From: Pseudonocardia sp. HH130630-07 | GTDB lineage: Bacteria; Actinomycetota; Actinomycetes; Mycobacteriales; Pseudonocardiaceae | Reading direction: 5' to 3' | Length of the DNA stretch: 64,000 bases | Assembly (NCBI RefSeq): GCF_001698125.1 | Contig: NZ_CP013854.1 | Location: 992,001-1,056,000 of the forward strand | Shown here: positions 2,901-29,434 of the stretch, piece by piece | Layout of the letters: every line of letters begins with the position of its first letter | Position numbering within the stretch: position 1 is the first letter of the stretch | Notes under the pieces: model-generated | Database searches by the model: none | What the model was told of the DNA's origin: nothing | What the model saw: only the letters and a program-made list of their open reading frames with translations | Position numbers and translations under genes: made by a program

Positions 2901-5378
2901 TCAGGTGTGGGGTCGGGCATCGTGCCGGGGGTCGGAGTGGTCAGACCCCTTACCGGGCAGCTGGTGGCTACGAGACGGGTGGGGTGCGGCCGGTTTGGTC
3001 GGGGTGTCGGGTGCCGGTGGGAGTGGTCGGGTGCGGAACGTGAACGCACGGGTCGGTGCTCCGGCGTTGAGCAGGGTGGCGGCGGCGTGGAAGCCGTCGA
3101 GGCGGGAGAGGTCGTGGGCGCTGAGTTCGGGCAGGGTGCGGCGAGCCAGCACGGCGGCATCGGCCGGGGAGAGCCCGAACAACGCCGCGTTCCGCGCGTT
3201 GGCCAACAACGCGTCGCGTAGCGGCGGGGTGACTTGGCCGAGGTGTTGGTGGGCGAGGATCAGCGACAGTCGGAAGCCGCGGGACTCGGCGAGCATGTCT
3301 TCGAGCCGGTAGGGCAGGTTCAGGAAGTTGTGGCACTCGTCGATGTAGAACGCCGCGTCAAGGCGGGTGTGCTCGGGTTGGCCGGCGCGGGCGAGCGCCG
3401 CGGCCCACACCTGGGCCACGAGCAGCGACCCGACCAGCCGCACGGTGTCCTCCCCGAGTGCGGCCTTGGGCAGGCGGACCAGCAACAGCCCGCCGCGGTC
3501 GAGTACCGCGGACAGGTCCACGGTGGACGGGCCGCAGAGCAGGTGTTCGGCGAACGGGCGGAGCAGGATCGAGCGGAGTTTGTTCAGCAGGGGTGCGCTG
3601 ATCTGGGCTCGGGTCGCGTCGGACAGGTGGTCGAACTCGTCCCAGAACTGCGACAACCGGGCACTCGGGGCCAGTCCGGTGAGCGTGCGGGCCCGCACCG
3701 CCTGGTCCCCGAGCAGGTCGGGGATCTGATCCAGCGAGGCGACACCGGGCCTGTCGCGCAGGGTCAAACAGGCGACCCGGAGCAGATCCTCACTGCGGTG
3801 CCCCCACGCGGCAGCGAACACCCGCGAGAACACCGAGACGACGTGTTCGACCGTGGCGTCACCGACACCGGGCACCGACGCCAGCCCGAGCGGGTCGAGC
3901 GGGTTCAGCCGCGGTGTGCGCCCGGGGTGGCTCGGGTCGATGACGATGGTGCGGGCTCGGGCGGCGGCGGGGAGCCGAGCGAGGGTGTCGGTGATCATGT
4001 CGCCCTTGGGGTCGATCACGACCGCGGCACGTCCGGCTTCAGCGTCGGCAAGGATCTGATGCACGAGCAGCGTGGACTTTCCGCTGCCGGTGGCGCCGAG
4101 GACCCACAAGTGATGGCGCGCGTCGGCCACGGACAGCCCGATCGGGCGGGCGGTGACGGCGTCGGAATCGCCGAGGACCCGCACGCCGGGGCCGCCGGTC
4201 GGGACCTGCGGGGGCGGGGCGATCGCGGCGGCTCCGGCCCGGCGCAGGCCGGGGACATGCTCGTCAGTGGGCAGATGCGCCAAAGCGGCGACCTCGGCAA
4301 CCGACAGCGGATCTCCACGCCGCAGCCGCCGAGACCCGATCACCTGGCCTGCTCGTCGGATCCGGCAGCGGCGGAAGTAGTTGTGCGCGGAGTACTCGGC
4401 GAACGTGGACGCGACGGCCCTCGCCCGTCGGACGGCCCGGGCCCGCGCCACTTGCGCGGCGTCACGGCCGTGCCCGAGCGGAGCGACCTCGGCAACCAGG
4501 CGGACAGTGACCAGGTGCCCTCCCCCGGCTCCGTGAGCTTTGGTCGCGGTGGCGCGGTCTTGTGTCGAGGTGACCAGGCGCCCAGGGCCCGAGGGCCGTG
4601 CCCCGGTCGTGGTCGCCTGTGGTCGGTGGCGGGTGGTGGTGTGGGCGGGTCCGTGCACGGCGGTCGCGACGATCTCCTGTGCCAGGGTCGCCGCCCCGCC
4701 CGCGACCACGCTCGCCAGGCGAGCGCCGGTGTCGACCGTCGCTCCCGGTCGGGCGAGCCGCGCGAGGCGCGCCCCGGAGATCGGCCGGGCCAGAACCTGC
4801 ACCCGGACCTGTTCGGAGGCGGTGAGGGGGGTGGCGGCCCCGATCAGGGCGCGCAGCGGGTCCGTGCGGTGCTCGGTCGCGATCGGCAACGCCGCAGGCC
4901 GAGCCAACCGCAACCGCGCACCCGCCACCTCCCCCGCACCCGTGCTGATGGGGTGGGGCTCGGGGGTGATGGTGGTCCGCGCGCCCGGCCACGCGCTGCG
5001 CGCGGCGGCGGCGACCTGCCCGGCCGCGACGGTGCCCGGCACCCACACCGAGATCCGTAGACCGCCTGCGTCGAACTGGTACTCGAACACCACATGCGGG
5101 GCCCGGCGCAGCGACCAGCGGGGGCGCAGCAGCCCGAGGAGGTGCTGCCAGAACACCGGCGCCCCGGCCGGGTCGACCCGGGGCGGGGCCAGGATCTCCA
5201 CCCGCGCCGCACCCGCCCACGCTCGCCGCACCGCCCACCGATCCGCCACCGTCCACACCAACCCCGCCGCCACGACGGCGACGGCGCCCGCGGCGACAAG
5301 CAGCGGCAATGCGCTCGTGGCGATAGTCGCTAGGGAACTCACCACGCTGGCCGTTGGTGGAGCGAGGGGATTCACCAC
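2901..5378 (-). CDS. VirD4/TraG-type type IV coupling protein
   Basis: The 825-aa product is the ATPase expected to bring DNA to the conjugation channel at the membrane. A hydrophobic N-terminal segment (about residues 15-45) would anchor it. A variable region follows, then Walker A GATGSGKST (428-436), VVIDPKGDM, and Walker B FYIDECHNF (677-685), and finally an AHQHLGQ segment typical of TraG/VirD4 ATPases. The C-terminus is Pro-rich. The GTG start overlaps the stop of the VirB4-like gene (GTGGTGA), so translation is coupled. No relaxase gene is visible in the window, so the substrate-processing partner is unknown. Confidence 0.9.
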   Translation of the reverse strand: MVNPLAPPTASVVSSLATIATSALPLLVAAGAVAVVAAGLVWTVADRWAVRRAWAGAARVEILAPPRVDPAGAPVFWQHLLGLLRPRWSLRRAPHVVFEYQFDAGGLRISVWVPGTVAAGQVAAAARSAWPGARTTITPEPHPISTGAGEVAGARLRLARPAALPIATEHRTDPLRALIGAATPLTASEQVRVQVLARPISGARLARLARPGATVDTGARLASVVAGGAATLAQEIVATAVHGPAHTTTRHRPQATTTGARPSGPGRLVTSTQDRATATKAHGAGGGHLVTVRLVAEVAPLGHGRDAAQVARARAVRRARAVASTFAEYSAHNYFRRCRIRRAGQVIGSRRLRRGDPLSVAEVAALAHLPTDEHVPGLRRAGAAAIAPPPQVPTGGPGVRVLGDSDAVTARPIGLSVADARHHLWVLGATGSGKSTLLVHQILADAEAGRAAVVIDPKGDMITDTLARLPAAARARTIVIDPSHPGRTPRLNPLDPLGLASVPGVGDATVEHVVSVFSRVFAAAWGHRSEDLLRVACLTLRDRPGVASLDQIPDLLGDQAVRARTLTGLAPSARLSQFWDEFDHLSDATRAQISAPLLNKLRSILLRPFAEHLLCGPSTVDLSAVLDRGGLLLVRLPKAALGEDTVRLVGSLLVAQVWAAALARAGQPEHTRLDAAFYIDECHNFLNLPYRLEDMLAESRGFRLSLILAHQHLGQVTPPLRDALLANARNAALFGLSPADAAVLARRTLPELSAHDLSRLDGFHAAATLLNAGAPTRAFTFRTRPLPPAPDTPTKPAAPHPSRSHQLPGKGSDHSDPRHDARPHT

Positions 5379-7354
5379 GGCCGAGCCTGCGTCTCGGGTG
5401 CGCCGGCGGCGACGGAACGGTCGAGGTCGATCCAGAACGGCGAGGCGGCGTGCTGATCGGCGAGCTGCGCCGGGTCCGTCGTGATCAGGGCGTCCTCTTC
5501 GGCGGAAGCGAGTGCGGCGAACGCGACCCGTCGGTCGTCGCCGCCGGTCAGCAGGCCGTCGCCGCGCTCGGCGGACAGGAGGAACGACTGCTCACCGGCC
5601 GACAGCCCGAACACGCGGCTCACGGTGTCGATGGCCTGCGACGCCTGCCGGAGAAGAATCTGTGTGGCCGAGTTGGTGATCACCGCCCGACCCAGATCCG
5701 AGGCCAGGACGTCGGCGGTGTCCTGAGTCGCCACCACGAGACCCGCCCAGTGCTTGCGCGCCGATTTCGCCGCCCGCAGCAGGAACCTCGCGCCCGCGCT
5801 GTGCTGGAGCAGCATCCACGCCTCGTCGACCACCACCAAGCGGCGGCGCCGGTCGTGCGGGTGGATCACCGTCCGCCACACCGCATCAAGCACGAGCATC
5901 GTCCCCAGCGGGCGCAGTGCCTCGGGTAGCTCTTTGAGCGACCACACGACCAGGTCACCGCCCGGCGGATGCGACGTCGGCCCGCCGAACAGGGCGGCGT
6001 GGCTTCCATCGGCATAGGGGCGCAGACGACGCGCGAGATCCTCGGCTATCTGGCGGGCCGGATCCGGCATTGGCGCCGCGTCGCCGTTCGCTCCGCTGTT
6101 CCCCTCCGGCCCGGCGGGGTTCTCCTCGGTGGGGTTCAGGGCGCGGCTGATCACACCGGGCGTGGTGTCAGGGCGGTCGAGCAGCGCGGCCCGCAGGTCG
6201 GCCAGCAGTGGTGCGGGGCGGGTCCAGGTCGCGGGGTCCTCGCCGATCCCGGCCCGGGTGTAGGCGAGGGTGATCGCCTCGTCCAGGACCGCGACCTCCG
6301 ACGCCGACAACGCCTCACCGCCGGACAAGGCCAGCGACAAGAACTCGTGCACGACCAAGCGGCGGCGGGCGAGCGCGTCCGGTGCCGCGGTTCGTGCCCC
6401 GTCGCCGGAGACATGGACGTCGAGGTCGAGCGGATTGACCCGCACCCCCGGCGCCCCGAGCCGCACGACGGTCCCGCCGACCGCCTCGGCCAGGCGCGTG
6501 TACTCGTCTTCGGGGTCGATCACCTGCACCTGTGTGCCGGTGTAGAGCGAACGCAGGACGTCGAGCTTGACCAGATACGACTTCCCCGCCCCGGACCGGC
6601 CGAGGATCACGGAGTTGTAGTTGTCCAGGCTCCACCGGTCCCAGAACACCAGCGACGACGACGCGAGGTTGTGGCCGATGAGGATCGACGTCTCCTCGCC
6701 CGGTCCGGACGGTGGCGGGAGGTCCGGGCTCGCGAACGGGAACGCGGCCGCGAGCGCGGCAGTGTCGAGGATGCGGGCGGTGCCGATCCGGTCGATACCC
6801 AGCGGGAGCCCGGTCTCCCACCCGTGCCACGCCCGCCACGTCGCCGGGTGCCCGGTCATCAACAGCGAGGCCAGCAGCGCACGGATCGCGGCGAGCTCAT
6901 CATCGAGCCCCGCCTCCGTCGGCGCCGTCACGGTCACCGTCAACGTGACCGTGAACAGACGCGCCTCGCCGCGGGCGACGCGTTCGGCGAGAACATGGGC
7001 GTCCTCGGTGGCGGCGTCGACCTCGGGGTCGGGAAGCCGGCCGTGCTCGGCCCCCGAGCGGCGCCCGGCTTCGAGCCGTGCGAGCTGGCGTCGCAACCTC
7101 GTGGCGGCGGTCGCGGGGTCGATCGGGGCGACGTGGAGCGAGACGTCGGCGAGACCGGGATGACCGGTCAGCGGCGCGAGCCATCCGGCGCCGGGGACCT
7201 CGCGGGGTAGCCCGGTGACGACCAGCGTGCAGGACCGCACTCCGTCGAGCGCGACCCGACGCGCGGCGACGCGCACCGTGTCCGGGGAGAACCAGCCACC
7301 CGGCTCCGGCTCGGGTGCGGCACGTCGTGCGCGGGAATGTAGGAGAGCCTTCAT
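5372..7354 (-). CDS. VirB4-like conjugation ATPase
   Basis: The 660-aa product is the energy-coupling ATPase of a type IV secretion-like transfer apparatus. An N-terminal VirB4-type region precedes NYNSVILGRSGAGKSYLVK, with Walker A at about residues 252-259. VIDPEDEYTRLAE is the usual motif after it, and Walker B is LVVVDEAWMLLQ (about 507-516). A near-C-terminal VVATQDTADVL matches VirB4/TraC sequences. The ATG at 7354 overlaps the upstream stop as ATGA; a longer frame to 7438 exists but would run back into the PrgI-like gene. Confidence 0.92.
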   Translation of the reverse strand: MKALLHSRARRAAPEPEPGGWFSPDTVRVAARRVALDGVRSCTLVVTGLPREVPGAGWLAPLTGHPGLADVSLHVAPIDPATAATRLRRQLARLEAGRRSGAEHGRLPDPEVDAATEDAHVLAERVARGEARLFTVTLTVTVTAPTEAGLDDELAAIRALLASLLMTGHPATWRAWHGWETGLPLGIDRIGTARILDTAALAAAFPFASPDLPPPSGPGEETSILIGHNLASSSLVFWDRWSLDNYNSVILGRSGAGKSYLVKLDVLRSLYTGTQVQVIDPEDEYTRLAEAVGGTVVRLGAPGVRVNPLDLDVHVSGDGARTAAPDALARRRLVVHEFLSLALSGGEALSASEVAVLDEAITLAYTRAGIGEDPATWTRPAPLLADLRAALLDRPDTTPGVISRALNPTEENPAGPEGNSGANGDAAPMPDPARQIAEDLARRLRPYADGSHAALFGGPTSHPPGGDLVVWSLKELPEALRPLGTMLVLDAVWRTVIHPHDRRRRLVVVDEAWMLLQHSAGARFLLRAAKSARKHWAGLVVATQDTADVLASDLGRAVITNSATQILLRQASQAIDTVSRVFGLSAGEQSFLLSAERGDGLLTGGDDRRVAFAALASAEEDALITTDPAQLADQHAASPFWIDLDRSVAAGAPETQARPW

Positions 7355-8379
7355 CGCGGGTGTCCCTCCGGGCCGAGGTGGAAGCCGTGCTCGTGGTCGA
7401 GGTCGTCGCCGGTCGGTGGTGGGCCCGGCATGGGCCACGGCGGGAACGGGCGCGGGATCTCGACCGTGGGCGGATCGAGATCCGCCCGGCGGGCCGGGTT
7501 CGGACCGCGACGTAGCCCGGCCGCTGGGGCGGTCGCGCGCTGGAGGACGGCGGCGGCCTCGGCGTCGGACAGCGGGGTCACCCGCAGTCCGAGCGGGCCG
7601 AGCATCCCGACCGCTTCCCCCGCGCGGCGGCGCAACACGTCACCGACCGCGGACACGGTCCCCTCGCGGGCCGGGGCCGGATCGCGGAACACGATCAAGA
7701 ATTCGTGATCCAGCAACTCGGCGTGGGCGTCGAGGGCCTGGAGGTGTTCGGCGTGGGCGAGAGCTGCGCGGGTCAGCGCCGGGTGGGCCAGGCGGGGCGC
7801 GGCGGCGTGCAGGCGTGCGATCGGCACCGACAAGTCCAGGCGCCGGGTGCGGGTCACGAGCTGCACCGGACCGGCAAGCGAGTGCAACCACCGAGCGAAC
7901 CCGGAGACGGCGGCGTGCTGCTCGGTCGCCGAGCGCAGACTCAGGTTGGCCGGCGCGACCGAGCACACCACCGCCAGGCCGGCCGACCCGAGATCAACGA
8001 CTCCGAGCCGGTCCGGACCGACCGCACGCACCCCACGCACCGGTACTCGCGTCGACACCACGCGTCCGGTGCCCTCTCCGGCGGCAGCCTGGACGGCGCG
8101 GGACGCGGAGCGCACCTGCACGCGGTGGTGGACCGCGGCGATGAGGAGGCGGTCGAGGCCGACGCCGTCGCGGCGACCGACAGCGAGCGCGGTCGCGGCG
8201 AGCGCGATCGGCGCCGACAGCACCGCGAACACCACGACGTGCGCCGCGCCGAGCGCTTGCCACAGCCCGTACACCGCGACGGCGGCCGAGCCGACGATCA
8301 CCAGCTGCCTCGCCGTCAGCGGGCCGAGGAGTTGATCCTCCCGGTCGACGTTCGCGGGAACCTGAACCGGCGCGGTCAT
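7351..8379 (-). CDS. PrgI/SCO6880-like conjugation membrane protein
   Basis: The 342-aa product begins VQVPANVDREDQLLGPLTAR, the typical opening of actinobacterial PrgI-family (SCO6880-like) proteins. Two membrane helices follow within residues 25-70, then a long soluble cytoplasmic part. In Gram-positive conjugation loci such proteins sit beside VirB4 and are thought to scaffold the inner-membrane channel. Its ends overlap both neighbours by ATGA, placing it in the same coupled operon. Confidence 0.85.
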   Translation of the reverse strand: MTAPVQVPANVDREDQLLGPLTARQLVIVGSAAVAVYGLWQALGAAHVVVFAVLSAPIALAATALAVGRRDGVGLDRLLIAAVHHRVQVRSASRAVQAAAGEGTGRVVSTRVPVRGVRAVGPDRLGVVDLGSAGLAVVCSVAPANLSLRSATEQHAAVSGFARWLHSLAGPVQLVTRTRRLDLSVPIARLHAAAPRLAHPALTRAALAHAEHLQALDAHAELLDHEFLIVFRDPAPAREGTVSAVGDVLRRRAGEAVGMLGPLGLRVTPLSDAEAAAVLQRATAPAAGLRRGPNPARRADLDPPTVEIPRPFPPWPMPGPPPTGDDLDHEHGFHLGPEGHPR

Positions 8380-10481
8380 CGGGCCCCCTCCCCCGAGGTG
8401 TCGTCAGTGCGGGTCGGTGGTGTGGGTGGGCGGAACAGCGGGACCGGTGCCGGTCCCGCCGCCGGTGGCGTCGGCGGTGCGGGCCGCGACCGAGTGGGCG
8501 GGTCGAATCGAACCGGCGTGACCGGGGCGCTCGGCCGCGGTGACCGGACGGCGGGTGGGGGTGGGGTCGGCTCGCGGAACTGCGGCACGGGCGGGGTGGG
8601 GCGCACGGCCCGGGACGGGTGCGGTGCCTCGAACTGGACCGGGGCCGGGGCGGCGGTGGGGCGGGCCCGTGGCGGTAGCGGGGTCGGCTCGGGCGCCGCG
8701 GGGGTGAACCGCACCGCGGGGGCCGGGCCGGTGGCCCGCGGTGGACTCGGCACGATCGGGCGCGGACGGGCCTGCGGGCGGAACTGCACCGGCGGCGGCG
8801 CCGTCGGTACCCGGCGAGGCGGCGGCTCAGGTGTGGGTGTGCGGCCGTCGCCGAATCGGACCTGTGGGGGTGCGGTGGTGGCGCGTCGTGCCCAGCTCGA
8901 CGCGTCCGGCCGCTGCGGGCCCGGTCCGCGGAAGACGATCGCGGCGGGTGCCTCGTTCTGGCGGCGCGGCAACGGCGGCTCGGGTTCGCCCGGGGCCTGG
9001 AACTGCGGCAGCAGCGGCGACCGCGAGGGGGTGTCGGGGAACTCGAAGGCGAGTTGCCCGGGGCCGGGTCGCGGGGCTCCTTCGACGCCGCGCGGGTACT
9101 CCCACGGCGTCACCGTGGCCTTGCTCTTGCGCCGTTTGAGTTTGCCCAGCGGCAACATCCACTGCCCGGTCGGCTCGATCGGAGCCACCTCGCCGGAGGC
9201 GGCCGGGCCGCGGCCTGCTTGGGACGGGACGCGCGTACCGGTCGGGCGGGTCGAGCGGGTGGCGGCTCGTCCGGCGAGGGCGCCGCGCAGGGCTCCGCCG
9301 GTCTTGTAGAGCAGGGCGGCGGTGACGAGTTTGGTCACGGTCGACTTCCCTCCAGCATTGATCTTCACCGCGGACCACACCCATCCCGGGACGCGGAGCA
9401 CGACCCACAGCAGGACGCCGACCATCAGCAACGTCACCCATCCCGCGGTGTTGGACGGGATGCCGAGGACGGCGGTCGGGGCATCAGGGGCCGGGGTGTC
9501 GGTCGGGGGCAGCACGACGGCGAGCCCGACGGCGATCACGAGGGCCTGCACGATCTGGATCGAGAGCAACCCGGCCAGCGCGCGCCACCACCAGCGGGCC
9601 AGCGGGTCGGTTTGCGGGAGGGCGTGCCACATGACGACCAGCGGTCCGGCGGCGACGAGAACGATGATCGCGACGACGCGCACGATGTAGCCCGCGACGA
9701 CGGCGAGCAGCAGGAGCCCGATCGCGACCAGTGCCATGAGCATCGGCCAGGGCAGAACGCCGCCGATGCGGGCCGGGTGCTCGGCCGAGGCCCGCACGAG
9801 CCCGGCCAGACCGGCGACCCCGGCCTGTTCATCGACCGGCCCGACCAACTCGTCGGATACTGCGTTGGCGATCGACACCGCCATATCGGCCAGCGGCAGA
9901 GTCAGCCACCCGGCGAGGAACCCCACCATCAACCGGGGCAGCACCTCGCGGACCCCGAGGCGGGACTGGACGCTCTGGTGCGCCATCACGATCAGGCCGC
10001 CGACACAGATCACCGTCGCGTAGACCGCCATCGCGATCTGCCACGAGGTGTCCCACAGCGACGCCAGACGCGGGATCGTCGAGGGCCGCGGAGTCTGCAA
10101 CAACGAGTTGGACAGGATCTCCAACGCGGGGTTGAGCACCTCGGTGACCGCGGTAGCCAACATCTCGGTGAACGCCTCGGACACACACGCCGGTATGTCG
10201 AACATCCCGCACGACGACTGCGCTGCGGGCGTCGACTCGCCCGGTGCCGGAGGCGGCGGGGCGCCCGGTGCCGGAGGCGGTGGGGCGGGAGGCGGTGGCG
10301 GGACGGGCTGGGCGACCCCGGCGGCGACCACCTCGGCTCGCACACCCGCTGCCGAGGTGGGCTCGGCGGGGGCCGGCGCAGCGAGCCCGACGAGCCCCAC
10401 CGCCACTACAGCCAGTAGCAGCGTGACCGCTCGAACCCGGGTGCGAATCAGCTCGCCCGGTGCCGGAGTCGGGGCCGCCAT
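8376..10481 (-). CDS. TrbL/VirB6-like polytopic transfer protein with Pro-rich tail
   Basis: The 701-aa product has a signal-like first helix (about residues 17-40), an extracytoplasmic Pro-rich linker with a Cys pair (SSCGMFDIPACVSEAF), and several membrane helices between about residues 145 and 380. These include AMAVYATVICVGGLIVMAHQ and ALVAIGLLLLAVVAGYIVRV. About 270 C-terminal residues are Pro/Arg-rich and low complexity. This matches TrbL/VirB6-like inner-membrane channel components of actinobacterial conjugative elements. The tail probably lies in the cytoplasm and may contact the ATPases (inference). It overlaps both neighbours by ATGA. Confidence 0.82.
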   Translation of the reverse strand: MAAPTPAPGELIRTRVRAVTLLLAVVAVGLVGLAAPAPAEPTSAAGVRAEVVAAGVAQPVPPPPPAPPPPAPGAPPPPAPGESTPAAQSSCGMFDIPACVSEAFTEMLATAVTEVLNPALEILSNSLLQTPRPSTIPRLASLWDTSWQIAMAVYATVICVGGLIVMAHQSVQSRLGVREVLPRLMVGFLAGWLTLPLADMAVSIANAVSDELVGPVDEQAGVAGLAGLVRASAEHPARIGGVLPWPMLMALVAIGLLLLAVVAGYIVRVVAIIVLVAAGPLVVMWHALPQTDPLARWWWRALAGLLSIQIVQALVIAVGLAVVLPPTDTPAPDAPTAVLGIPSNTAGWVTLLMVGVLLWVVLRVPGWVWSAVKINAGGKSTVTKLVTAALLYKTGGALRGALAGRAATRSTRPTGTRVPSQAGRGPAASGEVAPIEPTGQWMLPLGKLKRRKSKATVTPWEYPRGVEGAPRPGPGQLAFEFPDTPSRSPLLPQFQAPGEPEPPLPRRQNEAPAAIVFRGPGPQRPDASSWARRATTAPPQVRFGDGRTPTPEPPPRRVPTAPPPVQFRPQARPRPIVPSPPRATGPAPAVRFTPAAPEPTPLPPRARPTAAPAPVQFEAPHPSRAVRPTPPVPQFREPTPPPPAVRSPRPSAPVTPVRFDPPTRSRPAPPTPPAAGPAPVPLFRPPTPPTRTDDTSGEGAR

Positions 10482-10900
10482 CAGGCACCCACGATGCCCT
10501 GAAGAACACCGACCAGAACCGGGGCGAGTACCGCGATCGCATAGCCGAAACCCGCCGAGCGAAATGCCGTCTTCGCCTTCTCGACCTCGCCGAGATCGCC
10601 ACCTGCGGCCATGTAGCGCACCGCTCCGACCGTGAGAAACACGGTCGCCAATGCGGTAGCGATTCCCATGATCCAGTTGCGGATGTTGGTCAGGACCGCG
10701 TCCAGGGACTCGGCCGGAGCCGGGGCCTGCTGCTGCATCGGGACCACCGCCTGCTCGACCGCAGCCAGGGCGACGCCAGGGCCGAGCACGAGGACGGCCA
10801 GGGCGCCGAGCGTGGCGGCGAGCAGTAGCCGCACGGCCGCACCCCGGGCCCTTCCTCGGCGGAGTGTGGTCGGCTCGGTGCGGGACGTAGGGGTGCTCAT
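10481..10900 (-). CDS. VirB2/TrbC-like pilin-type subunit
   Basis: The 139-aa product has a basic N-terminus and hydrophobic signal segment (LLLAATLGALAVLVLGPGVALA), then a short periplasmic-type stretch. Two membrane helices follow: IRNWIMGIATALATVFLTVG and the C-terminal YAIAVLAPVLVGVLQGIVG. The linker YMAAGGDLGEVEKAKTAFRS is typical of VirB2/TrbC-like proteins in Gram-positive conjugation modules. It starts by ATGA overlap with the sigma-like gene and ends overlapping the TrbL-like gene. Confidence 0.82.
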   Translation of the reverse strand: MSTPTSRTEPTTLRRGRARGAAVRLLLAATLGALAVLVLGPGVALAAVEQAVVPMQQQAPAPAESLDAVLTNIRNWIMGIATALATVFLTVGAVRYMAAGGDLGEVEKAKTAFRSAGFGYAIAVLAPVLVGVLQGIVGA

Positions 10901-11970
10901 CGGGTCACCTGCCCGACCCCGGCCCGGCGAGCGCCGCGGGTCCGGCGCCGTCGACGACCGGTCACCTCCGGTGACCGTCGACTCTCGACACGCGCGGCGT
11001 CCGGGCCGCCCGCGGACAGCCGCTCGGCCCGTGTCCCCGCCGAGGCGGTCACGGTCCGCGACACAGAGCGCTCGTGTCCGGATGCCCGACGGTCGGGCGC
11101 GGCGGGGTCGGGGGCGGTGTCGTCGGCGCCGAGGAGGTGTCCGACGAGGCGCAGCTCGGCGCGCAGACGGCGCATCTTGATCGTGCCGACCGGAGTACCG
11201 GTGCGGGCGGCGACCTCGACCAGGGACACCCGCTGCAGGCGGGTCTCGCCGATCAGGTCGGCCTCGGCGGCGGTGAGGACGCCATCGGTGACCGCGGCGG
11301 CCAGGACGAGATCCGGATGCGCCGAGCGCGGGGGCGGCGGCATCGACCGCGGCCCCGACCCGGACCGCACCCCGCCCTGCCCCGAACCGGCCCCGGGGCC
11401 GGGCTCGTGGCCGGTGAGCACGTCGGCGATCAGCTCGTCATGCGGGCGCGGAGCGGGGGTGTCGAGGGCGTCGCGGACGACACCGAGTCCGGCCCGCAGC
11501 GCCGCCCACCGCAGCGACGAGGCGATCCCGGTCCGGTCGAGCGCGACCGTGCACAGCGCGCCGACGAACCCGGTCACGATCGCCGAGGCGATGTCCTCGC
11601 GGTCGCCGGCACCACGCGAGGTGCACTCGCGCAGCGCCGCGGCGAGCATCGGCATCGCCATCCCCGCGCACGCCACCGTCCACGTCGCACCCTCGCCACG
11701 CGAGCGGGCGATCAGGTAGCGCCACGCGGCATCGCGCACCGCCACAGAGGTGGCCGGGTCGAGCAGCAGAACCCGCAGTTCGTCGAGCGGGACACGCCGA
11801 TCCGGCACACCGGAAATCGCGGTGCCGTCGACGGTGACCGGATGCGGGGACGCGCACAGCCATTCCCACGAGACCCGGATCCCATCGAGCGCGGACACAG
11901 ATACCGCCGGGTCGGCGGGGCGAGGAATCGACGCGGTCCGGGCGGCCGCCGGGTGGGGGTGTCGAGTCAT
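10897..11970 (-). CDS. sigma-factor-like HTH regulator of the transfer operon
   Basis: The 357-aa product heads the coupled conjugation operon. A central helical region resembles sigma region 2. A C-terminal helix-turn-helix (about residues 240-300) reads LTAAEADLIGETRLQRVSLV then VAARTGTPVGTIKMRRLRAE, as in sigma-70 region 4. The start at 11970 has AGGAG upstream, whereas the longer frame to 12282 would run through the repeat region and is rejected. It may control transcription of the transfer genes, possibly through the heptamer repeats just upstream; that link is inferred. Confidence 0.7.
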   Translation of the reverse strand: MTRHPHPAAARTASIPRPADPAVSVSALDGIRVSWEWLCASPHPVTVDGTAISGVPDRRVPLDELRVLLLDPATSVAVRDAAWRYLIARSRGEGATWTVACAGMAMPMLAAALRECTSRGAGDREDIASAIVTGFVGALCTVALDRTGIASSLRWAALRAGLGVVRDALDTPAPRPHDELIADVLTGHEPGPGAGSGQGGVRSGSGPRSMPPPPRSAHPDLVLAAAVTDGVLTAAEADLIGETRLQRVSLVEVAARTGTPVGTIKMRRLRAELRLVGHLLGADDTAPDPAAPDRRASGHERSVSRTVTASAGTRAERLSAGGPDAARVESRRSPEVTGRRRRRTRGARRAGVGQVTR

Positions 11971-12070
11971 GGAAGAAACTCCTGTCAGCACGAAGCAGTG
12001 AGGCCGGACGCGCCTCGCCGACCGGTGTCGCGTTCCGGGCTGGTGGCGCCGGATCAGGAGACTCCATGCG

Positions 12071-12125
12071 TGCTTACAAAATGCTGAACGATTGCTTACT
12101 GGATGCTTGTGGAGTGCTTGCACGG
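12071..12125 (+). repeat. five tandem 11-bp iterons (TGCTTRC-type)
   Basis: Copies start at 12071, 12082, 12093, 12104 and 12115, exactly 11 bp apart: TGCTTACAAAA, TGCTGAACGAT, TGCTTACTGGA, TGCTTGTGGAG, TGCTTGCACGG. One-turn spacing puts the heptamers on one face of the helix, the usual layout for a Rep, partition or regulator binding array. It lies upstream of the sigma-like gene, between the two arms of the conjugation module. Possibilities are a replication origin, a centromere or a transfer operator. Confidence 0.6.
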
Positions 12126-12221
12126 CCCCGCCGAGCCCTCCCGGCTCGCCCGTCCGCCGCCGGTCGTGACGGTCGCCGCGGGCACGGTGAGACCGGTGCT
12201 CGGCGTCGGTCGACCGGAGCA

Positions 12222-12455
12222 TGCTTGCCGAGCGCAAGCGTGCTTCACATGCTGCGATCCCGATCGACGGGGCGAGAGGCACCCTCCTCGCCCCGGTCGA
12301 CGGCGCTCGCGGGATCGGACGCTTGCCGTCCGCAAGCAGGCATCAACGAGCGTCGCTGTATCGGTCCAGGCAAAAAATCTTGAGAACGATCTTGATCGCG
12401 GCCGATATCAACGCCTCGTATCGAATCCTCGACTTGTGCTTGCGGACCGCAAGCA
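12222..12455. promoter_or_regulatory. three inverted heptamer pairs GCTTGC-N5-GCAAGC
   Basis: The pairs lie at 12223-12239, 12321-12337 and 12438-12454, each with exactly 5 nt between the arms (CGAGC, CGTCC, GGACC). The arm is the same word as in the neighbouring iterons. The third pair extends to 8-bp arms (GTGCTTGC / GCAAGCAC). Fixed spacing is what a dimeric DNA-binding protein would require. Separation of about 98 and 117 bp suggests looping or a dispersed centromere-like region. The segment 12365-12420 is locally AT-richer. Function inferred. Confidence 0.55.
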
Positions 12456-12533
12456 CGATTCGACATGGCGCCACTGTGGGGTGTTACCGACCGTTCGTCG
12501 ATCGGGTCGAGAAAGTGGCGCGGCCGGTGTGAC

Positions 12534-12547: not shown

Positions 12548-12600
12548 TCGCGCTTTCTCTGGCGCGAGGGTTTCACCGTCTCGCCCCCTCGCCGGTCAAT

Positions 12601-13583
12601 GAGGTGTTCTCAGTAGTGGTGGTCGTTCCGCTGCGACACGCCGAGGGAGTGGAGATGTCTAGGACATGGGGCAGGGCCCCGGTAGAGCAGTTGGTCGACC
12701 AAGATCAACGAACTCTCCGAGGCCCCGCATGTCCGATCCTGTCACCTACACCGCTGTCCTCCCGATCGGGGAGCACACCGTGGCCTACCTGGCTCGGCTT
12801 CTGGCCGCTCAACGCTGTCGCCGCGGTACCCGCCCCCGGCGGCGGGCGTTGACCCCGTTCGCCCAGGCAGTGCTGGTGATCCGCTGGTTCTGCGACGCCA
12901 CCCGGGTCCGGCACCTGGCCCGCGACAACGCGATCAGTACCGCGACCACCTATCGCTACCTGCACGAAGGCATCGACGTCCTCGCCAGCGCCGCACCCGG
13001 GCTGCACGGTGCCCTGCTCGCCGCCCGCCTCGCCGGACACACCCACGTTCACCTGGACGGCACCCTGATCGCCACCGACCGCTGCCGCGCGCTCGGCCCC
13101 ACCGCGGGGGTCGACCTGTGGTGGTCGGGTAAACACCACCGCCACGGCGGGAACGTCCAGGTCGTGTCCGCCCCGGATGGATGGCCGCTATGGACATCCC
13201 CGGGAAGACCCGGGCGCGAACACGACGTGACCTGTGCCCGAGCCCACCCCGGTCTGCTCGAAGACCTCGATCACTGGATCGATGATGACCACGCCGCGCT
13301 GGGCGATCTCGGCTACGAAGGTGAGGCCCACCGACTCACCGTGCCGATCAAACCCATCCCCGCCGGCGGCCGAACAGTCGATCAGCGCACCGTCAACAGC
13401 CTGCACTCAGCCACCCGAGCACTCGCCGAACGAGCAAACGCCCTGCTCAAGACCACCTTCGCAACGCTACAGCGAGTCACCCTCTGTCCCTGGCGCACCG
13501 GCGCGATCACCGCAGCCGCGCTCGTGTTACTCCACACCGAATACGACCGCACAACATGATCACCACGCTACTGAGAACACCTC
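12601..13583 (+). mobile_element. IS5-type insertion sequence, 983 bp, with AAT duplication
   Basis: Terminal inverted repeats GAGGTGTTCTCAGTAG (left) and CTACTGAGAACACCTC (right) bound the element. AAT at 12598-12600 and 13584-13586 is the 3-bp target duplication. One transposase gene fills it. It inserted between the heptamer-repeat region and the plus-strand conjugation operon without breaking a gene that I can see. Confidence 0.85.
12729..13559 (+). CDS. IS5-family (DDE_Tnp_4-like) transposase
   Basis: The 276-aa product has an N-terminal helix-turn-helix (ARDNAISTATTYRYLHEGID). The DDE region includes HVHLDGTLIATDRC, VVSAPDGWPLW, GREHDVTCAR, LGDLGYEG and a C-terminal RALAERANALLKTTF. 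It is full length and intact, so the element may be active. The ATG at 12729 is chosen over an upstream frame start at 12666. Confidence 0.88.
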   Translation: MSDPVTYTAVLPIGEHTVAYLARLLAAQRCRRGTRPRRRALTPFAQAVLVIRWFCDATRVRHLARDNAISTATTYRYLHEGIDVLASAAPGLHGALLAARLAGHTHVHLDGTLIATDRCRALGPTAGVDLWWSGKHHRHGGNVQVVSAPDGWPLWTSPGRPGREHDVTCARAHPGLLEDLDHWIDDDHAALGDLGYEGEAHRLTVPIKPIPAGGRTVDQRTVNSLHSATRALAERANALLKTTFATLQRVTLCPWRTGAITAAALVLLHTEYDRTT

Positions 13584-13676
13584 AATGTCTGTGCGGCCTG
13601 CGAGGTGTCGCCGTATCCGCTACGGCGCTCGCCGTCTCGTTTCGTTGCGGATTCCCGTTAGGAAGGTGCAGGAACT

Positions 13677-14612
13677 ATGGGTAAGAGTGTTCACGGATCG
13701 CGTGGTCCGGGTCGCCGTCGCGTCGATGCTCCCGGGCCGACACGGGCCGCCCGGCGGGCCCGGCGCGCGGCGGGCCGTCTCACCGGGCCGGGCCGCGAGC
13801 CGGTGAGCCTCGCGGCCACTACCGGCCGGGACTCCGTTCGGGAGCCGGTGCCGGTGTCGGTGTGGGTCCTCGACCCGGGCGCAACGGCAACGACGACGGG
13901 ACTGCGAGCCCGGCTGCAGGTCGCACTCGCCGTCCCGTCCGCGACGACCCGGCGCGCCGCGAGCCCCGACACCGGCACCGGCACCGGCACCGGCGGGGGC
14001 TACTCGGCGGCCGGGCCCCGAAGTGCCGCTGTCGCAGGAGGCGGCGGCCCGGCAGGCTCGCCGTCCGCCGGCCCCACCGAGCACGAGACGGGCCGGTCGC
14101 TCGGCGGCTGTAGTGCGCTGGCCGCCGGGCGGGGTCTCAGGCACCGCTGCACGCCGAGCACGACCGGCGGAACCGGGTGCGCCGAGCAGGCGCACGCGGC
14201 CCCGATCGGCCCGACGCCGTCACTCACGGGCATCCCCGATGCCGCCACGATCGGCACCGACCGCACCGCCGAATCCGACAGTCCGCCGGAGCGGCGCCAT
14301 GTGCTGCTCGACCTCGGCCGCGGACCGGTCGAGCCCGGACAGCTGGCCGCCGCAGCCGCCGATCTCGGCCCGAGCGGCGTTCTCGCCGTTGCCACGTTCA
14401 GTCACCACGAGGACGGCCGGTTGTTCGATCCGCGGCCCGAGCTGATCGCCGCCGCCACCGCAGCCGGGCTCGCCCACCTGCAACACATCGTGACCATCAC
14501 CCGCCACGCGACCGACCGAGCCGCCTGGGCGCTGGGCCCGGACCTGTCGCTGTTCCAGACCCCCGCCACGGCCGAGGACGCCGCGTCGAGCACCCCGGGG
14601 GAGAACCCGTGA
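13677..14612 (+). CDS. hypothetical protein coupled to the DNA methyltransferase
   Basis: The 311-aa product starts at an ATG with AGGAAGGTGCAGGAACT upstream and ends in a GTGA overlap with the methyltransferase. The first ~190 residues are Ala/Gly/Arg-rich low complexity, including a (TG)n run from a GGCACC hexanucleotide repeat at about 13971-13994. Only the last ~110 residues look folded: HVLLDLGRGPVEPGQLAAAA, VLAVATFSHHEDGRLFDP, then AGLAHLQHIVTITR. It may be a companion of the methyltransferase. No function assigned. Confidence 0.65.
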   Translation: MGKSVHGSRGPGRRRVDAPGPTRAARRARRAAGRLTGPGREPVSLAATTGRDSVREPVPVSVWVLDPGATATTTGLRARLQVALAVPSATTRRAASPDTGTGTGTGGGYSAAGPRSAAVAGGGGPAGSPSAGPTEHETGRSLGGCSALAAGRGLRHRCTPSTTGGTGCAEQAHAAPIGPTPSLTGIPDAATIGTDRTAESDSPPERRHVLLDLGRGPVEPGQLAAAAADLGPSGVLAVATFSHHEDGRLFDPRPELIAAATAAGLAHLQHIVTITRHATDRAAWALGPDLSLFQTPATAEDAASSTPGENP

Positions 14613-15610
14613 GCATCAACGGTGACCACGAGACGCAACCCGAGTCCGGCCCGGCCAGCGGGCGGCTCGACCGCGGCGCGGGCCGGGTCTGGTTGTCCGC
14701 CCAGCGCAGTCCTCTCGCCCAGCGCCGCGACCGGCTCACCCCAGATTCGGTCGAGCATCCCGCGCGGATGCTGCCCGATCTCGCCGCACAGATCATCGAC
14801 ACCTACTCCCGGCCCGGGGAACTCGTCCTGGACCCGATGTGTGGAATCGGGACGACACTCGTGCAGGCGGTGCGGGCCGGGCGCCGCGCGGTCGGGATCG
14901 AGCTGGAATCGCGGTGGGTCCGCCTCGCCGACACCAATCTCACGATGGCGCGCGAGGACGGATTCGACGCCGATGCACGGGTGATACGCGGTGACGCCCG
15001 CGCCGCGCACCGGCTCCTCGCCGAGCACTACCCCGACGGCGCGGTGTCACTGATCGTGACCTCCCCGCCCTACGGCGCCGGAGTCCACGGGCAGGTATCC
15101 AACCAGATCGCCGATGACCCGATCATCAAATTTGACCACCACTACGCGACCCCGGCGGCGCGCAGCCGAGCGAACCTCGCCCACGTCCCCAGCGCGTTGG
15201 CCGAGTCGATGACCGCCGTGCTGCGCTCGGCGGTGCGGGTCCTGCGCCCCGGCGGGCACGTCGTGATCGTGTCCCGGCCGTGGCGCCACCGCGGCGTCCT
15301 CGTCGACCTGCCCGGCCAGATCACCGCGTCCGCGCACGCGGCCGGGCTCGTGCCCACCGACCGCGCCGTGTCCCTGCTCGCCCGCCTCGACGACTCCACC
15401 GGCACCGACACCGGCACCGGCACCGGCACCGGCACCGACGGTGAGGGTGCGGGTGCGGGTGCGGGGCCGGTGGCGCGGTTGGTGCTGCGGGCGAGTTTCT
15501 TCGCCCGGCACAACGTCGTCCGGGCCCGGCGCCTCGGCCAGCCGCAAGCCCTGGTCGTGCACGAGGACGTGTCGGTGTTCACCCGCCCCCACGCCGGGGA
15601 CCCCCGGTGA
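14609..15610 (+). CDS. DNA methyltransferase (amino-methyltransferase, TSPPY type)
   Basis: The 333-aa product carries the motifs of DNA N4-cytosine/N6-adenine methyltransferases: SAM-binding DPMCGIGTTLVQAV near residue 75 and catalytic VTSPPYGAG near residue 150. A late fold segment reads VRVLRPGGHVVIVSRP. No restriction endonuclease gene is next to it, so it is probably an orphan enzyme that protects or marks the element during transfer (inference). A GGCACC hexamer repeat near 15398-15438 encodes a (GT)n spacer. The GTG start is coupled to the upstream gene, and its end overlaps the replication-relaxation gene. Confidence 0.85.
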   Translation: MSINGDHETQPESGPASGRLDRGAGRVWLSAQRSPLAQRRDRLTPDSVEHPARMLPDLAAQIIDTYSRPGELVLDPMCGIGTTLVQAVRAGRRAVGIELESRWVRLADTNLTMAREDGFDADARVIRGDARAAHRLLAEHYPDGAVSLIVTSPPYGAGVHGQVSNQIADDPIIKFDHHYATPAARSRANLAHVPSALAESMTAVLRSAVRVLRPGGHVVIVSRPWRHRGVLVDLPGQITASAHAAGLVPTDRAVSLLARLDDSTGTDTGTGTGTGTDGEGAGAGAGPVARLVLRASFFARHNVVRARRLGQPQALVVHEDVSVFTRPHAGDPR

Positions 15611-16557
15611 CCGCGCACCGCGGAGGTCCCCGGTTCGCCGAGATCCTCGGGACGCTCACCCCACGAGACCGGTGGCTCATGGCGATGCTCGCCGAACACA
15701 CCGTCCTCACCACCCCGCAACTCGCCGCGCTCGGATGGGGAGCGAGTCTGCGCCGCGTCCAACGCCGCATCCTGACCCTGCACCGCGCCGAGGCCGTCGA
15801 CCGGTTCCGCCCCGTCCTCACCAGACCGCTCGGGACGGCGCCGTGGCACTACCTGCTCGGCCCGACCGGGGCCGCCGCCCTGGCCGCCGAGCACGGGCAC
15901 ACCGTCGCCCAGATCGGCTACCGCGGCCGAGCCCGCGCGCTCGCCGTCGCCGACCGCGCCACCCTCGGCCACGACGTCGCCACCCACGACGTCATCACCG
16001 GACTCGCCGCCGCCGGCACGATCGAGCTCACCGCCTGGTGGTCGCCCGCCCGCTGCGCGCGGAGCTTCGGCACCCACGTCCGCCCGGACGCCTACCTGTG
16101 TCTGACCGCTCAAGCTGGGTGGTGGGAGACGTTCCTCGAGTACGACACCGGCACCGAAACCCTGGGACGGGTCGCGGGCAAGCTCCGCGGCTACCACGAC
16201 CTCGCCGCCGCAACCGGGCTCATCACCCCGGTCTCGATCTGGCTCACCCGCCCCAGGCGCGAACCCTCGGCCCGCCACGCCCTCGCCACCGCGCTCGCGG
16301 GGTTGGCGCGCCCGGACCTCGTCCCCGTCTACACCGCCACCCCCACCGCCGCGGGACCGACGTCGACGGCGGCGGACCGGGTGTGGCTCCCGGTCGTTCC
16401 GCCCGGCCGCACCGCGCAGCGGGTCACCGTCGCCGAGCTGGCCGCACGTCGCCCCGTCCCGGTCCGGGTCGCCGCCCCGGACCGGTCGCGGTCGCGGGAC
16501 TCCTCGGCCCTTCCTCCGCCCCCGCCGCTGCCGCCGCACCGGCGGCGCACCCCATGA
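15607..16557 (+). CDS. replication-relaxation family protein
   Basis: The 316-aa product opens with a winged-helix region: ILGTLTPRDRWLMAMLAEHT, LTTPQLAALGW, RRVQRRILTLHRAEAVDRFR. It continues with TAPWHYLLGPTGAAALAAEH, HDVATHDVITGL and FGTHVRPDAYLCL, which matches the replication-relaxation (Replic_Relax) family common on actinobacterial plasmids and conjugative elements. Its biochemical role is not established. It may bind DNA in replication or transfer initiation. Overlaps: GTGA with the methyltransferase, ATGA with the transglycosylase. Confidence 0.85.
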   Translation: MTAHRGGPRFAEILGTLTPRDRWLMAMLAEHTVLTTPQLAALGWGASLRRVQRRILTLHRAEAVDRFRPVLTRPLGTAPWHYLLGPTGAAALAAEHGHTVAQIGYRGRARALAVADRATLGHDVATHDVITGLAAAGTIELTAWWSPARCARSFGTHVRPDAYLCLTAQAGWWETFLEYDTGTETLGRVAGKLRGYHDLAAATGLITPVSIWLTRPRREPSARHALATALAGLARPDLVPVYTATPTAAGPTSTAADRVWLPVVPPGRTAQRVTVAELAARRPVPVRVAAPDRSRSRDSSALPPPPPLPPHRRRTP

Positions 16558-22053: not shown

Positions 22054-22997
22054 AGGGCGTGTCTCCCAGATAGGCGGAGCGGGGTGCGCGATGCTTGATC
22101 GGTGCCGCGTACCGCTGTCCTGACTGATGTCCAGTGGGCCCGTCTGGCGCCGCTGTTGCCCTCCTCCGAGGGTCGTCGCGGGCGCCCGTTCCGCGATGAC
22201 CGCCGGGTGCTCGAGGGGATCATCTACCGGTATCGGTGCGGGCTTCCCTGGCGCGACGTCCCAGCCGAGTTCGGGCCGTGGCAGACGTTGTGGAAGCGGC
22301 ACCGCCGCTACAGCGGCGACGGCACCTGGGACCACATCCTGGCTGCTCTTCTGGTCGAGGCCGACGCCGCCGAGGTGCTCGGGTGGGCGGTCAGCGTGGA
22401 CTCCACGATCATCCGTGCCCACCAGCACGCCGCGACCCTCAAGCGCGACACAGGGGGCCGGATCGAACTACACGAATCTGCTCGCCGAACCAGCAGATCA
22501 CGCGCTGGGACGGTCCCGCGGAGGGCTGTCGACGAAGATCCACCAGCTCGTTGACGGGCACGGCCGCCCGCTGGTGGTCCTCCTCGGCCCCGGCCAGGGC
22601 GGCGACTCGCCAATGTTTCCGCACCTGATGGCGCGCCTGAGCATCGCCCGACCGGGCCCGGGACGACCCCGGACCCGGCCTGAACGCGTGCGCGCGGACA
22701 AGGCCTACTCCTCACGCGCGATCCGCCGGCACCTGCGCGAGCGCCGGATCATCGCTGTCATTCCGGAGCCCTCTGACCAGCAGGGACACCGCAAACGACG
22801 GGGCTCACGCGGTGGCCGACCGCCCGCATTCGATCCGGTCGACTACCGAAACCGCAACGTCGTCGAGTGCGGGTTCTGCCACGTCAAGCAGTGGCGCGGG
22901 CTGGCCACCCGTTACGACAAGCTCGCCCTGACCTTCCGCGGCGGCGCCGTCCTGAAGGCGATCGTCACCTGGCTCCGCGCATTGGGAGACACACCCT
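22054..22997 (+). mobile_element. IS5-family (IS427-type) element A
   Basis: Terminal repeats are AGGGCGTGTCTCCCA (22054-22068) and TGGGAGACACACCCT (22983-22997), 14 of 15 positions matching. Flanks suggest insertion at a CTAG/TTAG-type site. It carries a two-frame transposase typical of the group. It forms the left boundary of a possible composite transposon whose other boundary is element B at 28478-29482. Confidence 0.85.
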
Positions 22998-22999
22998 AG
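22102..22999 (+). CDS. IS5-family transposase in two overlapping frames
   Basis: The first frame (22102-22554, GTG start) encodes the N-terminal part: LTDVQWARLAPLLPSSEGRR, WRDVPAEFGPWQTLWKRHRR, VDSTIIRAHQHAA. The second frame ends at 22999 and encodes the C-terminal DDE part: HALGRSRGGLSTKIH, VRADKAYSSRAIRR, NVVECGFCHVKQWRGLATRY. The frames differ by one base, so the complete enzyme needs a ribosomal frameshift around 22440-22490. This is the normal arrangement for the IS427 group, though a decayed frame cannot be excluded. Confidence 0.8.
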
Positions 23000-26886: not shown

Positions 26887-28479
26887 ATGAGCAGCGCCGC
26901 CCCGGAGTTCAGCGAACGGACGATCGCCGCCCTCACGCGGGCCCGCCGGCACTCGGTCGGTGACCTGCTGCACCGCACGGCACTGCGCTACCCGGACAAG
27001 CCCGCCGTCGTCGACGGCGACACCCGCTGGACGTTCGCCGAGTTCGACGCCGCGGTGAACCGCTGCGCGGCCGCGCTGGCCGGCCACGGCCTGGCCAAGG
27101 GCGACCGGCTCGCGCTGCTGTCGCGCAACAGCCGTCAGTACGGGGTGCTGGTGTTCGCCACCGCCCGGCTCGGCGTCGTGCTCGTCCCGGTCAACTTCAT
27201 GCTCACCGCCGGCGAGATCGCCTACATCCTCGACCACTCCGGGGCGCGGGCGTTCGTCGTCCAGGACACGCTGGTCCCGACCGCCGAGCAGGCCCTCGCC
27301 CAGGTGCCGGTCCCGGTCCGGGTGCGGATCGGTGCGGGCGGGGACTGGCCGGACCTCGACGGGTGGATCGCCGGGACCGGCGACCCGGGGCAGCCCGACG
27401 TCGCCGTCGGTGACGACGACCCGCTGCGCCTGATGTACACCTCGGGCACCGAGTCCCGGCCGAAGGGCGTCGTGCTCACCAGCCGCTCGCTGGTGTCGCA
27501 GTACGTCTCCTGCATCGTCGACGGCGGCATGGCCCCGGACGACGTCGAGCTGCACTCGCTGCCGATGTACCACTGCGCGCAGCTGGACTGCTTCTTCTCC
27601 GTCGACGTCTACCTCGGCGCGACCAGCATCATCCTGCCCGCGCCGGACCCGGCCACCCTGCTGGCGACCATCGAGCGGGAGCGGGTCACCAAGCTGTTCT
27701 GCCCGCCGACGGTGTGGATCTCGCTGCTGCGGCACCCGGACTTCGACACCCGGGACCTGTCCAGCCTGCGCAAGGGCTACTACGGCGCGGCCGCGATGCC
27801 GGTCGAGGTGCTGCACGAGCTGGCCCGGCGGCTCCCCGACGTGGCGCTGTGGAACTTCTACGGGCAGACCGAGATGTCGCCGCTGGCCACGATCCTGTCC
27901 CCGGCCGAGCAGCTGGAGCGCGCCGGGTCCGCGGGCCGCGCCTCGCTGAACGCCGAGACCCGGGTCGTCGGCGACGACGACGAGGAGCTGCCGCCCGGCG
28001 AGGTCGGCGAGATCGTGCACCGGTCCCCGCACGCCGCGCGCGGCTACTACCGCGATGAGGACAAGACCGCCGAGGCGTTCCGGAACGGCTGGTTCCACTC
28101 CGGCGACCTCGGCGTCATGAGCGCCGACGGCTACCTCTCGGTGGTCGACCGGAAGAAGGACATGATCAAGACCGGTGGGGAGAACGTCGCCTCCCGGGAG
28201 GTGGAGGAGGCGCTCTACCTGCTCGACGGCGTCGCCGAGGTCGCGGTGTTCGGGGTCTCGCACCCGCACTGGATCGAGGCGGTGACCGCGGTCGTGGTGC
28301 CCCGCGACGGCGTGACGCTCACCGAGGACCAGGTGCACGCGCACGCCAGGGAGCGCCTCGCCGGCTACAAGCGCCCCAAGTACGTCGTGTTCGCCGGCGC
28401 GCTGCCGAAGAACCCCTCCGGCAAGATCCTCAAGCGCGAGCTGCGGGCCGAGCACTCCGGCATCGCCGGGAACGGCTAG
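26887..28479 (+). CDS. fatty-acyl-CoA synthetase (AMP-forming)
   Basis: The 530-aa product is a full-length ANL-family enzyme that activates a carboxylic acid with ATP and joins it to CoA. Motifs are the P-loop LMYTSGTESRPKGVVLTS, NFYGQTEMSP, GWFHSGDLG, DRKKDMIKTGGENV and the catalytic-lysine end PKNPSGKILKREL. The exact acid substrate cannot be read from the sequence; fatty acids are likely. Its TAG stop is the very site where IS element B is inserted. Confidence 0.9.
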   Translation: MSSAAPEFSERTIAALTRARRHSVGDLLHRTALRYPDKPAVVDGDTRWTFAEFDAAVNRCAAALAGHGLAKGDRLALLSRNSRQYGVLVFATARLGVVLVPVNFMLTAGEIAYILDHSGARAFVVQDTLVPTAEQALAQVPVPVRVRIGAGGDWPDLDGWIAGTGDPGQPDVAVGDDDPLRLMYTSGTESRPKGVVLTSRSLVSQYVSCIVDGGMAPDDVELHSLPMYHCAQLDCFFSVDVYLGATSIILPAPDPATLLATIERERVTKLFCPPTVWISLLRHPDFDTRDLSSLRKGYYGAAAMPVEVLHELARRLPDVALWNFYGQTEMSPLATILSPAEQLERAGSAGRASLNAETRVVGDDDEELPPGEVGEIVHRSPHAARGYYRDEDKTAEAFRNGWFHSGDLGVMSADGYLSVVDRKKDMIKTGGENVASREVEEALYLLDGVAEVAVFGVSHPHWIEAVTAVVVPRDGVTLTEDQVHAHARERLAGYKRPKYVVFAGALPKNPSGKILKRELRAEHSGIAGNG

Positions 28480-29434
28480 GGCATGTCTCCCAATAGGCGT
28501 GACCAGGTGATGCAGGCGCTGAGGACGGTGGCGGCGCGATAGGTGATGGCGAGTTTGTCGTAGCGGGTGGCCAGCCCGCGCCACTGCTTGGTCAGGGCGA
28601 AGTGGCGTTCCACGACGTTGCGGCCCTTGTAGGTCTCAACGTCGAGTCCGGGTGGTCTGCCGCCGAGGGAGCCGCGGCGTTTGCGGGCGGCGATCTCGTC
28701 GCGTTTCTGCGGGATGACGGTGGTGATCGAGCGGCGGGCCAGTGCGCGCCGGTTGACCCCGGATGAGTAGGCCCGGTCGGCCACCACGGCGTCGGGTCGG
28801 GTGCGGGACCGTCCCGCGCCGAGGCGGGGGACGCGGATGTCGGCCAGGACCTGCTCGAGCATGGCGCCGTCGTTGCGCTGCCCGCCGGTCACCACCACCG
28901 CCAGCGGCCGGCCCCGCCGGTCGACCGCGGCATGGATCTTCGTCGTCAGCCCGCCACGGGAACGGCCGATGCCGTGACCTGCGGGTTCTCGCGGTCCGCC
29001 GAGCGGGCTGGGCATGAACCCGTCAGGGGATTTCGTGTAGTTCGACCGTGCCCCCTGTGTCCTGCTCGGGGCGGGTGGTGTTCGTGGCGTGCTGGTGCGC
29101 CCGGTTGATCGTGGCGTCCACCGACACCTGTCAACACCGTCCAGTCGATCTCGCCCTTGGCGTCGGCCTGGGCCAACAGTGCGGCCAGCACGGTGTCCCA
29201 GGTGCCGTCAGCGGCGTAGCGGCGGTGTCGCTTCCACACCGTTTGCCAGGGCCCGAACTGCTCCCGCGGCAGATCTCGCCAGGGGATCCCGGTTCGGTAT
29301 CGGAAGATGATCCCCTCCACCACGCGGCGATCCTCGCCGAACGGGTGCCCACGCCGCCCGGCGTTGGAGGGCAGCAGCGGCCCGATCAACTGCCACTGAG
29401 CATCCGAGAGCAGCGCGAACCTCGACGAACTCAC
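28476..29434 (-). pseudogene. IS5-family transposase, frameshifted
   Basis: The N-terminal frame (29434 leftwards) reads LSDAQWQLIGPLLPSNAGRR and FGPWQTVWKRHRRYAADGTW, then at ADAKGEIDWTV goes out of frame. A stretch of about 10 nt (TTGACAGGTG, near 29125-29135) appears inserted; removing it restores VSVDATINRAHQHATN. The C-terminal frame (to 28476) reads GHGIGRSRGGLTTKIHAAVD, AVVADRAYSSGVNRR and RNVVERHFALTKQWRGLATR. The gene is probably dead, though the ends could be used in trans. Confidence 0.75.

Follow-up and report, generated by a model that had tools for sequence, protein, structure and literature searches.

Locus Organization

We analysed a 64,000-nucleotide stretch of the chromosome of Pseudonocardia sp. 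HH130630-07 (NZ_CP013854.1, positions 992,001 to 1,056,000), hereafter called the window. It carries genes for conjugative transfer, with Pfam matches to VirB4/TraG P-loop, TrwB/T4SS-DNA_transf, PrgI and T4SS pilin families; the coupling protein is of the DUF87/TrwB type by Pfam, and no classical relaxase family was identified in the element. At the window's left edge, a large serine recombinase (integrase) gene adjoins argS, and because of this position the genes most likely constitute an actinobacterial T4SS-type integrative conjugative element residing in the chromosome. Among 72,556 plasmid records, no relative of sigL was found at the protein level; at the DNA level there was a single match, at the end of the IS5-like insertion sequence described below.

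The array region separates two divergent transfer operons (Table 1), the T4SS operon led by sigL on one side and an operon containing methyltransferase and Replic_Relax genes on the other. Gene content on both sides bears out the placement between divergent conjugation operons proposed in the initial annotation, and Pfam likewise assigns the product of 15607–16557, labelled there as a replication-relaxation protein, to Replic_Relax. The first gene of the divergent operon encodes p311 (13677–14612), which has no confident Pfam match; its C-terminal part resembles, by eye, a degenerate methyltransferase domain. The gene adjoins that of a full TSPPY methyltransferase (14612–15610), hinting at a possible two-subunit enzyme.

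The IS5-like insertion sequence is flanked by a 3-bp target duplication (AAT at 12598–12600 and 13584–13586). It stands between the presumed control region and p311, where it may disconnect the divergent operon from the promoter region in this particular element. Two more IS4/5-type transposase regions are found in the window (22102–22999 and 28476–29434).

Table 1. Features of the array region and its surroundings; positions are those of the window.
Feature	Position	Strand	Basis
T4SS operon: pilin, TrbL/VirB6-like, PrgI, VirB4-like ATPase, coupling ATPase	2901–10900	-	Pfam
sigL, sigma-factor-like, first gene of the T4SS operon	10897–11970	-	AlphaFold2 model, Foldseek, divergence matching word divergence
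TGGAGTCTCCTG, candidate counterpart of TGGCGTCCTG	12055–12066	-	assigned by eye; the window's best automatic match lies elsewhere
Proximal array, five 7-bp words, 11 bp start to start	12071–12121	+	sequence; genome-unique layout; homologous 11-bp arrays at orthologous loci
Inverted pair 1, GCTTGC-CGAGC-GCAAGC	12223–12239	.	exact; one of only three genome-wide
Inverted pair 2, GCTTGC-CGTCC-GCAAGC	12321–12337	.	exact; one of only three genome-wide
Inverted pair 3, GCTTGC-GGACC-GCAAGC	12438–12454	.	exact; one of only three genome-wide
Candidate diverged counterpart of TGTCC-N19-GGAGTTCAGGGGTGTC	12501–12533	+	by-eye alignment; scan gave no copy in the window
IS5-like insertion sequence within the intergenic region	12601–13583	+	terminal inverted repeats GAGGTGTTCTCAGTAG; DDE_Tnp_4 transposase
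Divergent operon: p311 (311 aa), DNA N4/N6-methyltransferase, Replic_Relax	13677–16557	+	Pfam, synteny with relatives

Geometry of the Repeat Array

The direct units start at positions 12071, 12082, 12093, 12104 and 12115, in exact 11-bp steps, and read in order TGCTTAC, TGCTGAA, TGCTTAC, TGCTTGT and TGCTTGC (consensus TGCTTRC, common core TGCT(T)). The initial annotation had described five direct copies of TGCTTGC and three inverted pairs of the same word with a five-nucleotide spacer. Coordinates and 11-bp spacing of the direct copies are exact, whereas only the fifth unit is TGCTTGC itself; in the inverted pairs the 6-bp arms match exactly, but the 7-bp arms (TGCTTGC/GCAAGCA) are perfect only in the third. 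A 6-bp arm followed by five nucleotides puts the arm starts 11 bp apart, so that direct and inverted copies lie in one helical register.

A genome-wide motif search, suggested in the same annotation and run here for the layouts, confines both of them to this region. In the 6,680,451-bp genome, GCTTGC-N5-GCAAGC has exactly three perfect matches, all within one 232-bp stretch, and TGCT repeated at five successive 11-bp steps has one (none for the reversed control pattern). The lone heptamer TGCTTGC is found 13 times in the window, where 4.2 copies would be expected, and five of the 13 lie in the array region. Its presence elsewhere in the window is what an explanation by chance or local composition could draw on; we give this explanation practically no weight, since the layouts are unique in the genome and the periodicity is conserved at related loci (see below), comparative data that already refute it. 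A nucleotide search of the region against 62 genomes of the genus returned, besides the region itself, short patches only, and Rfam gave no match between positions 10000 and 16000.

Iteron replication origins consist of tandem short repeats plus inverted copies. The presence here of short direct iterons with inverted copies, along with a Replic_Relax protein encoded by the element, would suit a plasmid-type replication origin or a centromere, with iterons serving a Rep or Par protein, as the initial annotation had envisaged. We find this very improbable: the element looks integrated, its large serine integrase adjoining argS, and the plasmid records hold no sigL relative; Replic_Relax is located elsewhere in many related loci (in L057 and L066, for example, it comes downstream of the coupling ATPase), and no ParA/ParB-type protein was found among the ORFs scanned. 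In contrast to iteron origins, no iteron-type Rep gene was found beside the integrated element, and the distance from its repeats to the start of a gene is fixed.

Conservation of the 11-bp Scaffold

Orthologues of SigL are encoded in 11 other Pseudonocardia genomes, and a second copy (49% identical) is present in the window's own genome. A scan of the genome collection yielded 80 loci in Pseudonocardia, Amycolatopsis, Actinokineospora, Saccharothrix, Lentzea, Prauserella, Kibdelosporangium, Saccharopolyspora, Crossiella, Streptomyces and other hosts; synteny is common to most of the sigL loci examined. Repeat periodicity of 11, 22 and 33 bp upstream of sigL emerges across 89 related loci, mostly from Pseudonocardiales and some from Streptomyces. 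Capped counts of direct repeats reach 777, 519 and 408 at these three lags, compared with roughly 150–250 at most other lags. Exact 6-mers recur at lags 11, 22 and 33 in 38, 37 and 34 of 56 non-redundant loci, respectively, versus 13, 10 and 12 in block-shuffled sequence. The closest relative of the window locus, L037, possesses a poor array.

In many loci a second, distal cluster accompanies the proximal array. When some 330 bp on the upstream side of the proximal array were scanned in 40 loci with each locus's own word matrix, 57 word copies were found in reverse orientation (10.7 in shuffles) and 16 in forward orientation (9.3 in shuffles). The reverse copies are often 11 bp apart and some 95–150 bp away. 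In the window the distal set takes the form of three inverted pairs, whereas most relatives have inverted ladders.

Distribution of the Repeat Words

For the initial annotation, an array of which related elements kept neither spacing nor motif would have been refuted; the outcome is split, as the spacing is kept there but the motif is not. Array words differ by element type and include GGTACC, GGTGCC/GTCACC, CTAGTAG, GTAGTAG, TTCTTGT, TTTTGAGGC, CTGCATT and CAAGCA, the last being the word of the window in the direction of sigL. The words fall into six or more classes, which track element type rather than host. Across the family, the layout is constant and the word varies with the element.

Clearly different words are carried by co-resident elements in 10 genomes with two or more elements, a count that leaves out the Kibdelosporangium, Crossiella and Lentzea pairs, whose words are related. 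The window's own genome is an example, its two elements having the words CAAGCA and CGCTTAG; the second element, of the same type and on the same chromosome (L038, G000:C1:3681424), has the word CTAAGCG in the orientation of the window. Very similar elements have one word in common, both within and between hosts. The difference between co-resident elements, combined with the retention of a word by one element type across hosts, argues against a regulator of the host and favours an element-encoded reader.

The divergent operon supplies one conceivable reader of another kind, as a methyltransferase gene lies on the far side of the region in 80 of the 89 loci and GGTACC, one of the common words, is palindromic; the words might then be sites that the element's DNA methyltransferase recognizes, acting as an epigenetic switch. 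We consider such a switch highly improbable. Most words are non-palindromic, methylation needs no exact 11-bp phasing, arrays are still there in L047 and L049, where no methyltransferase was found beside them, and the word correlates less with the methyltransferase than with SigL (see below).

Conserved Elements Flanking the Array

Upstream of sigL lies a TGGCGTCCTG element, matched at 7 or more of 10 positions in 39 of 40 loci, and the distance from the last array unit to it is mostly 10–17 bp. This near-constant gap suggests a probable overlap between the direct array (12071–12121) and the T4SS operon's promoter. Across the intergenic region, a TGTCC-N19-GGAGTTCAGGGGTGTC block located just upstream of the divergent operon is strongly conserved in most loci and across genera (most of L053–L103, plus L107, L116, L119, L128 and L129), making up a candidate promoter or nic site.

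In plasmid R388, the stbDRs are five 9-bp direct repeats with 2-bp spacers at the promoter of an operon linked to transfer; they form two repeat sets, with further copies at other promoters, and the protein StbA serves the balance of segregation and transfer (PMC3098194). The window array resembles them in its five short direct units, spaced 11 bp apart, at a (here predicted) operon promoter. However, R388 is a proteobacterial plasmid with a different word, and in the window the second set consists of inverted pairs and the gene product beside the array resembles sigma factors.

A transfer-origin or segregation role is possible for the array as well. The region would then be an oriT accessory region, where a relaxosome or segregation protein binds the repeats as StbA binds the stbDRs, with nic in TGTCC-N19-GGAGTTCAGGGGTGTC. 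The 11-bp geometry and copy number match those of the stbDRs, divergent transfer operons flank the site, the GGAGTTCAGGGGTGTC block is kept across genera while the words diverge, and Replic_Relax hits a PHROG whose description is replication initiation by nicking. Nevertheless, we regard this role as rather unlikely: the near-constant distance separating the array from the TGGCGTCCTG element has the look of a link to a promoter, the TGTCC-N19-GGAGTTCAGGGGTGTC block is situated close upstream of the start codon of the divergent operon in a promoter-like manner, no relaxase is tied to the site, and the automatic scan of the window missed the block.

SigL as a Candidate Reader of the Word

The AlphaFold2 model of SigL contains two confident domains, which look sigma2-like and sigma4-like. 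Its best Foldseek matches among solved folds are sigma factors (weak E-values of 0.003–0.01, probability of about 1.0), in agreement with the sigma-like label initially given to the product of 10897–11970. Pfam Sigma70_r4 is matched weakly in one of 10 SigL members, and neither sigL nor p311 yielded an Xre-type HTH match.

Across 39 loci, similarity of the words correlates best with similarity of the SigL N-domain (0.62) and SigL HTH (0.55), followed by VirB4 (0.46), the methyltransferase (0.44), PrgI (0.41), TrbL (0.27) and the pilin (0.26). SigL is again the best tracker of the word in a 33-locus subset; the corresponding value for Replic_Relax, computable for 14 divergent loci only, is uninformative. 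Linkage or phylogeny could be the source of the correlation between sigL and the word.

We do not claim that the SigL HTH is the word reader. In a partial Mantel test of word against HTH given the N-domain, the coefficients were weak (0.03, p = 0.23 for the same strand; 0.09, p = 0.01 for both strands), the HTH adding little beyond the N-domain. In addition, the SigL homologues of L047 (8660 onward) and L049 (9391 onward) have 11-bp arrays upstream, yet they end before the HTH domain; the divergent neighbour in these loci is the coupling ATPase, not the methyltransferase. Arrays found without it indicate that the SigL HTH cannot be a universal binder. On both grounds SigL is to be taken as the lead candidate for binding the array, not as a demonstrated binder.

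Comparison with Known Conjugation Control Regions

The operators OI and OII of Rco in the Bacillus plasmid pLS20 consist of numerous 8-bp motifs, grouped into two clusters around the divergent conjugation promoters; the motifs of the clusters are mostly in opposite orientation, and Rco binds cooperatively, with looping, while a strict 11-bp ladder is not known to occur there (PMC4207663). The likeness to many of the related loci lies in two clusters of a short motif and in the predicted control of conjugation in a Gram-positive host, and the difference in the regulator, an Xre-family protein in pLS20 and sigma-like in the case of SigL. An 11-bp ladder, probably over the first T4SS promoter, with a second set toward the divergent promoter has the anatomy of cooperative operators, possibly with looping, as demonstrated for pLS20 Rco; for the ladder itself the precedent is R388 stbDRs.

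In actinobacterial conjugative elements, short direct repeats are also represented by the clt/TRS sites of Streptomyces TraB in AICEs, which rely on one FtsK/SpoIIIE-like TraB and have no T4SS (covered in part by PMC3218068). The window element, unlike AICEs, has a T4SS operon and a DUF87/TrwB-type coupling protein.

The initial annotation knew of no published description of the arrangement. Close analogues have in fact been published, namely R388 stbDRs (PMC3098194) and the pLS20 Rco operators (PMC4207663), but the actinobacterial family was not found described. The literature searched, which lies mostly outside subscription journals, contained neither 11-bp repeats in conjugative elements of Amycolatopsis or Pseudonocardia nor an actinobacterial family in which a fixed scaffold, a varying word and a lead gene of sigma-like type come together. 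As a kind of control region, operators iterated at conjugation promoters are known.

Proposed Mechanism and Significance

The sequence itself shows a unique phased array, its conserved spacing and position, distal clusters that mirror it, and a word that follows element type; protein binding, the part of SigL, repression and looping are inferences. The initial annotation had considered an autoregulated control region, and this is the best reading: in most related loci the array ends 10–17 bp short of the TGGCGTCCTG element upstream of the first T4SS gene, and many have a second cluster that mirrors it. We consider it reasonably likely that the region represents operators of an element-encoded, cooperative regulator controlling the two divergent transfer promoters, with SigL as the lead candidate binder.

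An element-encoded DNA-binding protein would occupy the short words along one face of the helix, and its binding would be cooperative because successive units are separated by one turn (11 bp). A second operator set, nearer to the divergent operon, would be constituted by the inverted pairs (12223–12454), and a DNA loop may bridge the two sets. Binding would repress or switch the two promoters and place the regulator under its own control. The change of word with the element is consistent with co-evolution alongside each element's own regulator.

Private words probably let the regulator of each element switch only its own transfer genes. More tentatively, we speculate that the fixed scaffold (11-bp ladder and mirrored distal cluster) filled with a word specific to each type could be a private code insulating co-resident elements, the reader being a cooperative regulator derived from a sigma factor.

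Conjugation control in T4SS-type actinobacterial elements is sparsely covered in the searchable literature, and a scaffold with an element-specific word offers a direct route to finding the control regions of such elements. Matched to their SigL sequences, the natural variants of the word, in six or more classes, are a ready data set for studying protein–DNA specificity. Scaffold and words together may allow regulator–word pairs to be predicted and independent control of co-resident elements to be tested.
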